The notes beneath the pieces are model-generated. The model saw nothing but the letters and a program-made list of their open reading frames with translations. It ran no database searches and had not been told where the DNA came from. A stretch of DNA of 5,466 bases from Bifidobacteriaceae bacterium (lineage in GTDB: Bacteria; Actinomycetota; Actinomycetes; Actinomycetales; WQXJ01): contig JAISCU010000361.1 in the NCBI GenBank assembly GCA_031265345.1, forward strand, positions 1 through 5,466. Reading direction: 5' to 3'. This document shows positions 1,020 through 4,656 of this stretch, one piece after another. Each line of letters begins with the position of its first letter. Position 1 is the stretch's first letter. The position numbers were made by a program, and so were the translations under genes.

Positions 1020-1394
1020 ATGAATCCGGTCGCCATCAACCCGGGCAGCCTCGGCCGCCACATCCCGCCGGGCGCGGGCGCCCAGGATGCGTTGTCCGCG
1101 CCGATCCCGACTCGCGCCAAGGTGTCCGACGCCGTCCGATCCCGCTACGCCTTCCTCGCCGACCTCGACTGCGGCGAGAGGATCATCGCGCGGGCGCGCG
1201 AACAGGCCCGACGCTTCGCGCTGAAATTGCTCGCGGGCCTGCCCGGCGGCGGTCGTCGCAGTTGGAGGCCGGGTTCGCGGCTGTCGAGTCCCCGCGAGGC
1301 CTGGGCCGCCTTAGCCGGCGGTTCTCATCGTCACGGGTTGGCCGCGTCAATTTCGACCACTCGGTCGATCAACCAACGCTCGATCAGGGTCTGA
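1020..1394 (+). CDS. hypothetical protein, 124 aa
   Basis: I do not recognise this protein. ATG 1020 is preceded by GGAG (1008-1011) with an 8-nt spacer, a good ribosome site that decides the start. Codons for residues 1-75 have strongly G/C third positions, including the stretch VSDAVRSRYAFLADLDCGER followed by IIARAREQARRFALKLLAGL, which predicts charged amphipathic helix. After about base 1245 the codon bias weakens and another frame (SQLEAGFAAVESPRG) looks more coding-like. The C-terminus may therefore be frameshifted or replaced. The ORF ends convergently, overlapping the 3' end of the antitoxin gene by 64 nt, which is unusual for intact neighbours. There is no signal peptide or membrane segment. 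The N-terminal two thirds are probably real; the tail is doubtful. Confidence 0.45.
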   Translation: MNPVAINPGSLGRHIPPGAGAQDALSAPIPTRAKVSDAVRSRYAFLADLDCGERIIARAREQARRFALKLLAGLPGGGRRSWRPGSRLSSPREAWAALAGGSHRHGLAASISTTRSINQRSIRV

Positions 1395-1576
1395 CGGTCC
1401 ACGCCCTCCGCGTCGGCCTCGGAATCGATCAGGGCCACCAGGCCAGCCGACAGCAGGACACTGACCCACTGGTCGTCGGCGTCGCGGGTACCGGTCGAGA
1501 GATCCATGTATTGGTAGAGTTCATCGCTTCCTTGGTCGAACAGTCGATCAAGTTCTTCAGCGTCGATTTCTTTCAT
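1331..1576 (-). CDS. BrnA/CopG-like ribbon-helix-helix antitoxin
   Basis: This is the likely antitoxin of the adjacent BrnT-type toxin, 81 aa, ATG at 1576. Residues 1-35 are acidic (EIDAEELDRLFDQG, then YMDLSTG), matching the toxin-wrapping N-terminus of such antitoxins, which typically carry an FD-x-GED/E and DLS pattern. Residues 37-43 (WVSVLLS) form the DNA-binding beta strand. Residues 45-58 and 60-73 (DRQTLIERWLIDRV) are the two helices of the ribbon-helix-helix fold, close to the family's VTRQSLIKVWIAERL. The first 20 nt overlap the end of the toxin gene. A GAGGGAGG site lies about 12 nt upstream, inside the toxin gene. In this family the antitoxin dimer neutralises the toxin and represses the operon. 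No paired operator was identified here. The sequence appears intact, unlike the toxin's N-terminus. Confidence 0.75.
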   Translation of the reverse strand: MKEIDAEELDRLFDQGSDELYQYMDLSTGTRDADDQWVSVLLSAGLVALIDSEADAEGVDRQTLIERWLIDRVVEIDAANP

Positions 1577-1888
1577 TGTATAGTCGCGCCTCCCTCTGGG
1601 TCGCTCGTCGTACAGAAATCAGGCGCACGACCTCCCCGCGCGGCATCCGAAAGGCCGCGTAGATCCTTCCTTCCAGCCGCGCAAGGCGTGAGAACCGAGG
1701 TTCCGACGGATGACCGGCAGCGAGATCGAAGCCCAACCGGTCCCTCCACAGGAGCTTGGCCCTCTCGAAATCGATCCCGTGTTTCGCCCGGTTGGCCTGG
1801 CCCTTTTTGGCAGATCGTACTCGAAGGTGGTCGCGGCGTCGCGCGGCCACGATCCGTGAGGACCGCCCCATTCGCCCCGGCCGCCCAT
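1557..1888 (-). CDS. brnT: BrnT-family ribonuclease toxin, frameshifted near N-terminus
   Basis: The C-terminal part is clear BrnT: ANRAKHGIDFERAKLLWRDR, then FSRLARLEGRIYAAF and VVRLISVRRATQREARLYNE, the usual small RNase fold with its KHG motif and final R-rich helix. The expected first strand (FEYD) lies in a different frame, opened by ATG 1888. Its ATG overlaps the stop of the DUF4417 gene (TGATG). That frame reads to ATTFEYDLPK and meets an A5 tract (T5 at 1804-1808 on the + strand), after which the BrnT frame continues. A one-A loss, a two-A gain, or -1 slippage at the tract would restore FEYDLPKKGQANRAKHG. The BrnT frame is itself open from ATG 1895, giving about 112 aa with an Arg-rich, non-family N-terminus. 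The toxin could thus be dead, variant-tipped, or made by frameshifting. It ends at TGA 1557-1559, 20 nt inside the antitoxin gene. Confidence 0.7.
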
Positions 1889-2817: not shown

Positions 2818-3240
2818 TTGACACGGCTCTCAATCATTGCCCCGAAGGCTGCGGAGCTATATAACCGCTGGTCAGGGCAGGTGTGCGGGTGGGATGACGG
2901 GTGCTTGGACGGGCCGTTGGAGTCCCCTGTCGGGGCGGTTGAGGGGAGGTATGTAACACCTCGAACATTCCTCCCCCCTGATCTGACACTCAAACTGGCT
3001 GCCGACTACGAGGCCGGCGCGACGGCCCGTGGCCTCGCCCGCGAACACGGCATCCACCGCACCACCGTGGTCCGCCACCTTCGCCGGGCGGGCGTCGTGA
3101 CCAGGCAGCGGCGCATGGCCGACTCACAGGCCCTGGTCGACCGGGCGCGGGCGCTTCACGCCGAAGGCCGGTCGCTGCGGGCCATCGGATTGGAACTCGG
3201 CATCTCTCATCCGTCCGTCAAGCGGTTGTTGGACATCTGA
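2818..3240 (+). CDS. tandem helix-turn-helix protein, recombinase-associated type
   Basis: 140 aa from TTG 2818, the first possible start after the in-frame stop at 2656-2658. Two helix-turn-helix motifs are visible. The first is at residues 69-92 (ARGLAREHGIHRTTVVRHLR), preceded by LAADYEAG. The second is at 118-140 (SLRAIGLELGISHPSVKRLL). This pairing resembles the DNA-binding tails of, and small proteins beside, actinobacterial serine recombinases, so a role in site-specific DNA binding is inferred. No catalytic recombinase domain is present. Residues 1-50 match nothing I know, have weaker coding bias and contain an inverted repeat, so the true start may be internal. The best evidence for coding is residues 50-140. 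It is divergent from the DUF4417 operon and 320 nt ahead of the methyltransferase. Confidence 0.65.
   Translation: MTRLSIIAPKAAELYNRWSGQVCGWDDGCLDGPLESPVGAVEGRYVTPRTFLPPDLTLKLAADYEAGATARGLAREHGIHRTTVVRHLRRAGVVTRQRRMADSQALVDRARALHAEGRSLRAIGLELGISHPSVKRLLDI
2943..2976. promoter_or_regulatory. nested inverted repeats, possible operator
   Basis: GGGGAGG (2943-2949) and CCTCCCC (2970-2976) are exact complements around 20 nt. Partly inside lies AGGTATGTAACACCT (2947-2961), an imperfect palindrome with 5 of 6 arm pairs matching. It sits just before the helix-turn-helix coding part of the 2818 gene. That would suit an autoregulatory site if translation actually begins downstream of the TTG, but no ATG, GTG or TTG is in frame right after it. 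Confidence 0.25.
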
Positions 3241-3560: not shown

Positions 3561-4226
3561 GTGACCAGCGGCAATGTTGAACGGCGCCTCAAATGCGGGT
3601 CGCTCTTCAGCGGATACGGCGGCCTTGATCTGGCGGTCGAGGAGGTGTTCGGCGCCCGCACGGTCTGGTTCGCGGAGACCGACCCGGCCGCCGCGAAAGT
3701 GTATTCGAGCCACTGGCCCGGGGTCCCCAACCTGGGCGACGTCACCATGGTCGACTGGGGCGGCGTGGAGCGGGTGGACGTGCTGTGCGGAGGCTTCCCG
3801 TGCCAGTCGGTTTCGGTCAGTGGCTTGCGCCATGGCCTGGCCGAGGGCACGCAGTCGAACCTGTGGGCCGAGATGGCGACCGCGATCTCGGCCCTGCGAC
3901 CGCGGTGGGTCGTAGCGGAGAACGTGCCAGGTCTGCTCAGCGCACCAGCGGCGCGGCACCGGCCAAAGAAAGAAAGGGGACCGGGCGATGGGGGATTCGG
4001 GGACGGGTCGGGCGCCGTTCGCGGTGTGGGAGCCCGCGCTTGGGGTTTGGAGGACGAACCAGCCGGATCTTCTCGCGCGATGGGAGCGATATTGTCAGAC
4101 CTGGCCGGCCTGCGGTACGACGCGGGATGGGTCAGCCTACCGGCTGCCCGCGTGGGCGCTCCGCATCTCAGGTGGAGGGTTTTCCTTCTCGCGTGGCCGG
4201 CTGTTCCGGACCCCGACGGCGTCTGA
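3561..4226 (+). CDS. C5 cytosine DNA methyltransferase, alpha subunit (motifs I-VIII)
   Basis: It would form the catalytic half of an enzyme moving a methyl group from S-adenosylmethionine to C5 of cytosine in DNA. Numbering from GTG 3561 (221 aa), the motifs run: motif I at 14-23 (SLFSGYGGLD, AdoMet binding), E39-T-D41, GD 59-60, motif IV GGFPCQS with catalytic Cys81, ENV motif VI at 120-122, and motif VIII at 199-211 (GAPHLRWRVFLLA). It then stops with no recognition domain and no motifs IX-X, which lie in the overlapping next gene. A TTG at 3540 would add seven residues. Neither start has a strong ribosome site; GTG puts motif I at the usual distance. An unusual Gly/Arg-rich insert of about 45 residues (roughly 125-172) separates motif VI from the motif VIII region. 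No restriction gene is nearby. The type resembles phage and actinobacterial orphan methyltransferases. Confidence 0.85.
   Translation: MTSGNVERRLKCGSLFSGYGGLDLAVEEVFGARTVWFAETDPAAAKVYSSHWPGVPNLGDVTMVDWGGVERVDVLCGGFPCQSVSVSGLRHGLAEGTQSNLWAEMATAISALRPRWVVAENVPGLLSAPAARHRPKKERGPGDGGFGDGSGAVRGVGARAWGLEDEPAGSSRAMGAILSDLAGLRYDAGWVSLPAARVGAPHLRWRVFLLAWPAVPDPDGV
3972..3987 (+). promoter_or_regulatory. internal ribosome binding site for the beta subunit
   Basis: GAAAGGGGA (3972-3980) with core AAGGGG at 3974-3979 is followed by 8 nt and then ATG 3988. It lies inside the alpha gene, encoding its Lys/Glu/Arg/Gly insert. A purine-rich tract with correct spacing supports independent initiation of the beta reading frame. 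Confidence 0.55.
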
Positions 4227-4656
4227 CAGCGCCAGGGGCGGCGAGACCCTCACGAAAGTCAGGGAGCGCGGCGGCCAGGTCGCGTTGACGCATCAGTTGG
4301 TCGACCTGGCGGTACGGCGCTCCGCGATGAAGGACCCGGAAGAGGCGGCCGGGTGGTGGGGCGAGTACCAGCCTCAGGTTGGGCAGTGGGAAAGGGTCAC
4401 CGACAGATCCGCGCCCGAGCCCGCCGCGCGAGGACGGGCGGGCAGGTGGTTCTCATCGGCGGCATTCACAGAATGGGCGATGGGCCTACCCGAAGGCTGG
4501 GTCACAAGCCCTGAACTCGGATTGACCCGCGCGCAACAACTGCACACTTTGGGCAATGGTGTGGTACCTGAACAAGCTACTGCCGCGCTTCGAACGCTCT
4601 TGGCGCTCGGAGATCGGCCACCGCAACCGCGGCGAGGTGTCGGCCACTGCGAGTGA
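3988..4656 (+). CDS. C5 cytosine methyltransferase, beta subunit (recognition region, motifs IX-X)
   Basis: 222 aa in the +1 frame relative to alpha, overlapping it by 239 nt. Residues 14-54 carry VWRTNQPDLL and TWPACGTTRDGSAYRLP, the Trp-rich block (family form SETWPRSGMTRNGxAYELP) found in the C-terminal part of phage-type C5 methyltransferases. LFRTPTASD (72-80) matches the following LLPTPTASD. WWGEYQPQVGQWERV plus APEP (123-145) and FTEWAMGLPEGWVT (160-173) are the motif IX region. LHTLGNGVVPEQA (185-197) is motif X, which completes the AdoMet site. Motifs I-VIII are absent, so it cannot act alone. It presumably binds alpha and supplies target recognition; the target sequence cannot be read from this. 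Start ATG 3988 has an AAGGGG site 8 nt upstream. Precedents are M.AquI and M.EcoHK31I, whose two chains come from overlapping genes. Confidence 0.85.
   Translation: MGDSGTGRAPFAVWEPALGVWRTNQPDLLARWERYCQTWPACGTTRDGSAYRLPAWALRISGGGFSFSRGRLFRTPTASDSARGGETLTKVRERGGQVALTHQLVDLAVRRSAMKDPEEAAGWWGEYQPQVGQWERVTDRSAPEPAARGRAGRWFSSAAFTEWAMGLPEGWVTSPELGLTRAQQLHTLGNGVVPEQATAALRTLLALGDRPPQPRRGVGHCE

Follow-up and report, generated by a model that had tools for sequence, protein, structure and literature searches.

Organization of the overlapping gene pair

The DNA described here is a stretch of 5,466 nucleotides (nt) from the genome of a Bifidobacteriaceae bacterium (contig JAISCU010000361.1 of assembly GCA_031265345.1; hereafter the window), whose forward strand carries two overlapping open reading frames (ORFs), alpha and beta, related to C5-cytosine DNA methyltransferases. 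As proposed in a first-pass annotation made from the sequence alone, alpha (positions 3561-4226) contains motifs I-VIII, and beta (3988-4656) lies in the +1 frame of alpha and shares 239 nt with it (3988-4226). Motif numbers (I-X) are used for both chains in the sense in which we take them to apply to this family.

Alpha, the putative catalytic subunit, has 221 amino acids and begins with a GTG codon located at the same position as in P0029, a relative with 69% identity. It matches PF00145 (E 2.1e-32, residues 11-129) and the phage family phrog_363 (3.4e-62, residues 5-211). The family alignment revealed intact motifs I (FSGYGG, 3606-3623), IV (GGFPCQS, 3789-3809, containing the catalytic Pro-Cys-Gln and aligned to M.HhaI), VI (ENV, 3918-3926) and VIII (GAPHLRWRVF, 4155-4184).

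Beta, starting with ATG, has 222 amino acids and is composed of a Trp-rich N-terminal block, a recognition-type region and segments of the motif IX-X type. No match to Pfam or NCBIfam was found for this protein, and its N-terminal part has no match among solved folds. It does match phrog_1008, a family annotated as DNA methyltransferase, over most of its length (6.2e-36, residues 9-206), as do all 74 betas scanned; only one of these 74 matches PF00145, and beta aligns with IX-X-type segments of the family. A close relative, P0003, is 80% identical over 95% of the protein. The beta alignment and profile place the N-terminal block (FAVWEPALGVWRTNQPDLL...TWPACGTTRDGSAYRLP) at 4018-4149, where it is read from the DNA encoding motifs VI-VIII of alpha, and the start of the recognition-type region (FRTPTASD) at 4204-4227, ending one base beyond the alpha stop. 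Two alignments locate the segments that we assign to motif IX (SSAAFTEWAMGLPEGW, 4456-4503) and motif X (LGNGVVPEQA, 4549-4578).

Relatives of the pair and their two layouts

Protein searches identified 3407 relatives of alpha and 26 of beta (the latter at E of 0.001 or better). Among the 119 alpha relatives that were listed, 9 are shorter than 280 amino acids and 110 have at least 286, most of them about 360. With beta as the tblastn query, 452 records matched among 50,697 from phages, and 10 among 72,556 from plasmids. The 176 loci collected for comparison comprise 4 viral loci (found with beta alone), 12 annotated phage or plasmid regions, 80 viral loci (the best 80 of 439 by beta alignment) and 80 cellular loci (the best 80 of 195, chosen by alpha alignment alone, without use of beta).

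Two main layouts were distinguished. In two-ORF loci, such as the window, motifs IX-X are located in the beta ORF; in one-ORF loci they reside in the alpha ORF, within which beta is nested. The beta block occurs in the +1 frame of alpha in 173 of the 177 sequences (window included). In this set, gathered partly by similarity to beta, there are 77 two-ORF and 83 one-ORF loci, 8 with other arrangements and 5 without a C-terminus in reach, L003, L004, L147 and L158 being unclassified. Among the cellular loci the +1 block is present in 80 of 80 (67 one-ORF, 4 two-ORF, 4 other and 5 lacking the C-terminus). The family spans actinobacteria, their phages and uncultured viruses. The two-frame arrangement noticed in the first-pass annotation is real, but it is not special to the window, and the layouts differ in the frame that carries IX-X.

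The one-ORF loci bear on another statement of that annotation, namely that close homologues with all ten motifs in a single frame and a clear indel at this site would speak against two chains. Such homologues exist in form, with about 60% identity in alpha; in effect, however, they retain the nested +1 beta frame, most of them with its own Shine-Dalgarno sequence and start codon. Past motif VIII, the nested beta frame is more conserved than the alpha frame in this class (compared over the 51 of 67 loci left after removal of near-copies), and in a modelled one-ORF relative the stretch of alpha between motifs VIII and IX is predicted to be disordered.

Homologues with the same overlap as the window include pairs already annotated as overlapping DNA methylases, namely Firecracker gp6/gp5 (209 nt overlap) and Phanphagia 65/66 (251 nt). 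Beta is annotated with a late start or not at all in Camerico, KHumphrey, phiBT1 and a plasmid of S. tubercidicus (the feature table of the latter is incomplete by design). Gene 9.1 of phage phiBT1 (L177; 1885-2385 and 2003-2932 region) is described in its record as "DNA methylase may be inactive", and an unannotated ORF in the +1 frame, which overlaps this gene and extends beyond it, contains the beta block (58 bits) and a IX-X segment (81 bits). In a Microbacterium plasmid (L013; 2959-3426 and 2373-3737) only the nested beta is tabulated, as a hypothetical protein, and the surrounding methyltransferase ORF is not, this table also being incomplete by design. In phage Poenanya (L012; 1489-1947 and 1871-2206) alpha is distributed over two frames and apparently broken, and beta is open. 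An Embleya plasmid (L014; 1484-2702 and 3471-4567) carries the overlapping pair near a second annotated cytosine methyltransferase.

Double coding in the overlap

The DNA of the overlap encodes family-conserved sequence in both frames: GAPHLRWRVFLLA in alpha, and TWPACGTTRDGSAYRLP and FRTPTASD in beta, in accordance with the first-pass annotation. In order to measure the constraint, the synonymous codons of alpha were permuted, with protein and codon usage kept, and the +1 frame was scored with a beta-block profile, which in the case of the window was built without the window and without its closest relative. The beta frame of the window scored 57.7 bits, while the shuffles averaged 20.8 and did not exceed 52.9, none of them (0 of 5000) reaching the real value; the +1 frame was stop-free in 1942 of these 5000. 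The real +1 frame scored above all 100 shuffles in each of 173 loci (window included). In the reverse test, whose results cover the 160 one- and two-ORF loci, beta codons were shuffled and the motif VIII region of alpha was scored. Shuffled sequences fell below the observed score in all cases (77 of 77 two-ORF and 83 of 83 one-ORF loci); the window, whose alpha is among the 20 rows of the motif VIII profile, scored 81.4 bits, whereas the best of its 100 shuffles gave 46.6.

The +1 and +2 frames of the alpha motif I-VI region served as a control in held-out loci (171 segments, 158 of them tabulated). In 66 two-ORF test loci their median z values were 0.18 (+1) and 0.32 (+2), with stop codons in 64 and 61 loci, respectively; in 82 one-ORF test loci the values were 1.53 and 1.02, with stops in 51 and 43. 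The median z of the beta frame was 6.3 in 67 two-ORF and 7.7 in 83 one-ORF test loci. Since the shuffles never reach the observed score in either direction, one stretch of bases is under constraint in two frames at once. These results support the proposed dual coding, in which the DNA of motif VIII also encodes the N-terminal block of the second chain, and the overlap is not a frameshift accident.

The geometry of the overlap is also conserved. The distance from the TWP of beta to motif VIII of alpha, each placed by its own profile, is exactly 56 nt in 172 of 173 loci, including the window. In the 57 of 77 two-ORF loci where motif VIII was found by pattern, alpha stops at a median of 13 residues after this motif, and the overlap has a median length of 233 nt (quartiles 224 and 248, range 206-782); the 239 nt of the window fall within the quartiles. 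The guanine-plus-cytosine (GC) content of two-ORF loci varies from 40 to 71%.

Seven further loci with a partial beta match (six phages, one plasmid) were analysed, and six of them contain the +1 block, each with a score above all 200 shuffles. L183, a gene of a Tsukamurella plasmid, is a true single chain: the block is absent, the +1 frame contains stops, and a long stretch separates VIII from IX in its own frame.

Putative internal start of beta

Within alpha, a Shine-Dalgarno-like sequence (AAAGGGGA, 3973-3980, forward strand; duplex energy -7.8 kcal/mol) precedes beta, with AAAGGGG placed 8 nt upstream of the ATG at 3988. The sole other ATG, GTG, TTG or CTG codon of the beta frame between 3916 and 4039 is a GTG at 4024 (-3.6 kcal/mol), located inside the conserved block. 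When one rule was applied to all loci, a start with a duplex of -6 kcal/mol or stronger was found in 51% of the 77 two-ORF and 89% of the 83 one-ORF loci; the same rule was satisfied at control positions in 6% and 4%, and after synonymous shuffling in 11% and 26%, respectively. AGGAG occurs upstream of the beta start in 67 of 76 cellular loci examined. An example of such a start is AAGGAG-ACGACG-ATG, where the alpha frame reads EGDDDE.

The position of the start relative to motif VI was determined for 151 of 173 loci, motif VI not being matched by the pattern in the other 22. In cellular one-ORF loci, beta mostly starts 61 nt past the ENV of alpha (56 of 66). In 54 two-ORF loci formed by the window and its non-cellular relatives (phage, plasmid, uncultured virus), it starts 22 nt past ENV in 28 cases and 4 nt past it in 20. 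One of these three distances is seen in 128 of the 151 loci of all classes; the window, at 70 nt, shows none of them. In the 22-nt form the start codon is GTG in 25 of 28 loci and is located in the LLSA of alpha.

Of the 72 non-cellular loci that have the motif, 41 show the 22-nt form: 28 of the 54 two-ORF loci, 10 of the 15 one-ORF loci and all 3 of the others. In these viral and phage loci the conserved ENVRGLLSA of alpha encodes the Shine-Dalgarno sequence of beta and, mostly, its GTG start, and part of the conservation of alpha at this site may therefore stem from beta.

History of the layouts

A tree of the N-terminal part of alpha (145 rows, 120 columns) was built from the 160 one- and two-ORF loci, with identical rows and loci with a late-starting alpha match omitted. 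The switch between the two layouts requires 9 changes on this tree, at least 3 of which are forced by well supported branches. The window groups with L022, a two-ORF locus from another Bifidobacteriaceae genome (support of 92, under the 95 mark, in the Shimodaira-Hasegawa-like approximate likelihood ratio test, SH-aLRT), and both are placed in a cellular group in which one-ORF loci predominate (59 of 64 rows). We read this pattern as the result of repeated small insertions and deletions between the recognition region and motif IX, which would have moved IX-X across frames while the overlap was kept.

Profile searches of the first 177 sequences, on the plus strand of each locus, placed none of 175 hits of the N-terminal block outside a +1 overlap with alpha. 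Because the block was not seen elsewhere in the loci examined, it probably arose by overprinting of alpha.

Interpretation and alternative explanations

The best explanation, in which we place considerable confidence, is that the window encodes a two-subunit C5-cytosine DNA methyltransferase, translated from one messenger RNA read in two frames, with beta produced from an internal start. It builds on the constraint on both frames, the intact motifs, the internal ribosome-binding site and the wide conservation, which were all established computationally. Ribosomes initiating at 3561 would synthesize alpha, providing cofactor binding, the catalytic Cys and motif VIII, and other ribosomes would initiate internally at 3988, from the Shine-Dalgarno sequence inside alpha, to produce beta. 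The N-terminal residues of beta (about 60) would come from the DNA of the motif VI-VIII segment of alpha, and the remainder would supply the recognition region and, in the variant represented by the window, motifs IX-X. The two chains would then assemble into one enzyme with methylation activity, in which beta presumably plays the recognition role. In the sister variant, the alpha frame encodes IX-X, and beta is nested and about 160 amino acids long.

Of the alternatives, it is unlikely that beta is an independent protein with a different function (e.g. a regulator or an anti-restriction factor) rather than a methyltransferase subunit. The lack of a solved-fold match for its N-terminal part would agree with such a role, as would the one-ORF loci, where the IX-X profile match lies in the alpha ORF and no methyltransferase motif was found in the nested beta. 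However, in the window and 76 other loci (whose alphas were not individually checked for IX-X) this match lies in the beta ORF, so alpha in the window would not be complete by itself; moreover, the annotation of phrog_1008, matched by every beta scanned, and the predicted absence of an ordered region between VIII and IX in the modelled one-ORF alpha both argue for a methyltransferase subunit.

It is quite improbable that a programmed +1 (or -2) ribosomal frameshift in the overlap fuses alpha to beta, instead of or besides the synthesis of two proteins. The frames overlap by more than 200 nt, and a shift could occur anywhere within this region; furthermore, methyltransferases, of unspecified type in the consulted part of the PRFect paper, are counted there among the pairs of genes for which fusion by frameshifting is predicted (PMC10885494). 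Nevertheless, beta possesses its own start and Shine-Dalgarno sequence, lost on synonymous shuffling, which speaks against this mechanism because a frameshift product needs neither, and in one-ORF loci alpha reaches IX-X without any shift and the beta frame is conserved regardless.

The least probable explanation, a frameshift mutation or assembly error in a single-chain gene, with a second frame that is only apparent owing to alpha conservation and GC-richness, might draw on the 110 of 119 listed alpha relatives of at least 286 amino acids and on the conserved DLA.LGYDA.W of alpha, which biases the +1 frame towards TWP....TR.G, but it has next to no probability, given that shuffles keeping alpha residues and codon usage never match the real beta frame, that the same layout occurs in two-ORF loci at the lowest GC content, that alpha ends at the same place in relatives, that the +1 frame is conserved in one-ORF relatives as well, and that the single-chain gene L183 has no such block and carries stops in +1. 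The first-pass annotation had already argued that a simple frameshift mutation does not explain the overlap, and this possibility, like a sequencing error, is ruled out by the shuffle tests and the relatives. DLA.LGYDA.W written in GC-rich codons yields TWP-like strings in the +1 frame, and we therefore took seriously the idea that the similarity among betas is an echo of alpha conservation; it was rejected as the shuffles fall far short and L183 lacks the block.

Returning to the two-subunit enzyme, the analysis adds to the initial observation the family-wide scale, the nested form in complete-looking genes and the built-in ribosome-binding site. We consider it rather likely that an entire family of cytosine methyltransferases, among them probably hundreds of seemingly single-chain actinobacterial genes, needs a hidden +1 gene. 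On this view, the nested chain gives the missing recognition domain, its N-terminal module was created by overprinting on a catalytic motif of its partner, and later insertions and deletions between the recognition region and motif IX moved IX-X from frame to frame several times. In actinobacterial phages, in uncultured viruses and in cellular genomes alike, the combination of split and overlap looks like a stable design. A gene finder that discards the shorter of two overlapping ORFs would overlook beta in the 67 cellular one-ORF loci. Provided that beta is the recognition subunit, alpha-only clones of supposedly whole enzymes would lack activity or specificity, a possibility that can be linked with the remark on inactivity in the phiBT1 record, where beta is unannotated. 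The system also offers a clean case of the same bases coding for two parts of one enzyme, useful for studies of overprinting and for gene prediction.

Comparison with known systems

The first-pass annotation compared the pair to M.AquI and M.EcoHK31I, and on the best reading the window enzyme would resemble both in kind. In the consulted parts of PMC3404938 these two are named as exceptions, i.e. cytosine methyltransferases split into two polypeptides. M.AquI (CYCGRG) has a large chain with motifs I-VIII and a small chain with the distal variable region and IX-X, which, compared by description, is the same I-VIII/IX-X division as in the window; it differs in that part of its variable region belongs to the large chain (PMC3404938). 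The window beta begins 56 codons ahead of motif VIII, and the DNA that encodes this motif also specifies the N-terminal block of beta. M.EcoHK31I (YGGCCR), whose large chain carries I-VIII, X and the predicted recognition domain and whose small chain carries only motif IX, shares with the window the presence of two polypeptides (PMC3404938). Its division of motifs does not correspond: the window beta contains both IX and X, and the alpha of one-ORF relatives contains both as well. The small gene of M.EcoHK31I is out of frame inside the large gene, an arrangement like that of the one-ORF loci.

Among phage families, alpha matches phrog_363 and the betas match phrog_1008, as exemplified by Firecracker gp6/gp5. 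Such pairs are annotated as two "DNA methylase" genes, and their feature tables do not state dual coding, an internal ribosome-binding site or a nested form. In M.HhaI the recognition domain resides in the same single chain; by difference, the corresponding stretch of the modelled one-ORF alpha is predicted to be disordered.

The ShiLan domain, an HNH endonuclease encoded out of frame within a DNA methylase gene of a phage, also resembles the arrangement; in the consulted part of PMC11855218 it is described as a homing insertion. In the window, the second frame is instead a conserved methyltransferase part that overlaps a catalytic motif. Our literature search on methyltransferases of phages or actinobacteria with overlapping or nested genes, which did not extend to the original M.AquI and M.EcoHK31I papers, found this arrangement in no title or abstract start. 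The consulted part of the Tweety genome paper mentions several DNA methylases, two of them with Corndog relatives, and does not comment on an overlap (PMC2884959).

Other genes of the window

Several other genes were recognized in the window. A BrnT-like toxin domain (1590-1808, minus strand; PF04365, 9.4e-15) forms residues 107-179 of the ORF 1557-2126, and a small ORF behind this gene (1331-1576, minus strand), for which no Pfam match was found, may encode a candidate antitoxin. A DUF4417 protein is encoded at 1888-2517 on the minus strand (PF14386, 5.6e-56). Upstream of the methyltransferase genes, positions 2818-3240 of the plus strand encode a small protein containing two stretches of the helix-turn-helix type (PF13936, PF13384).
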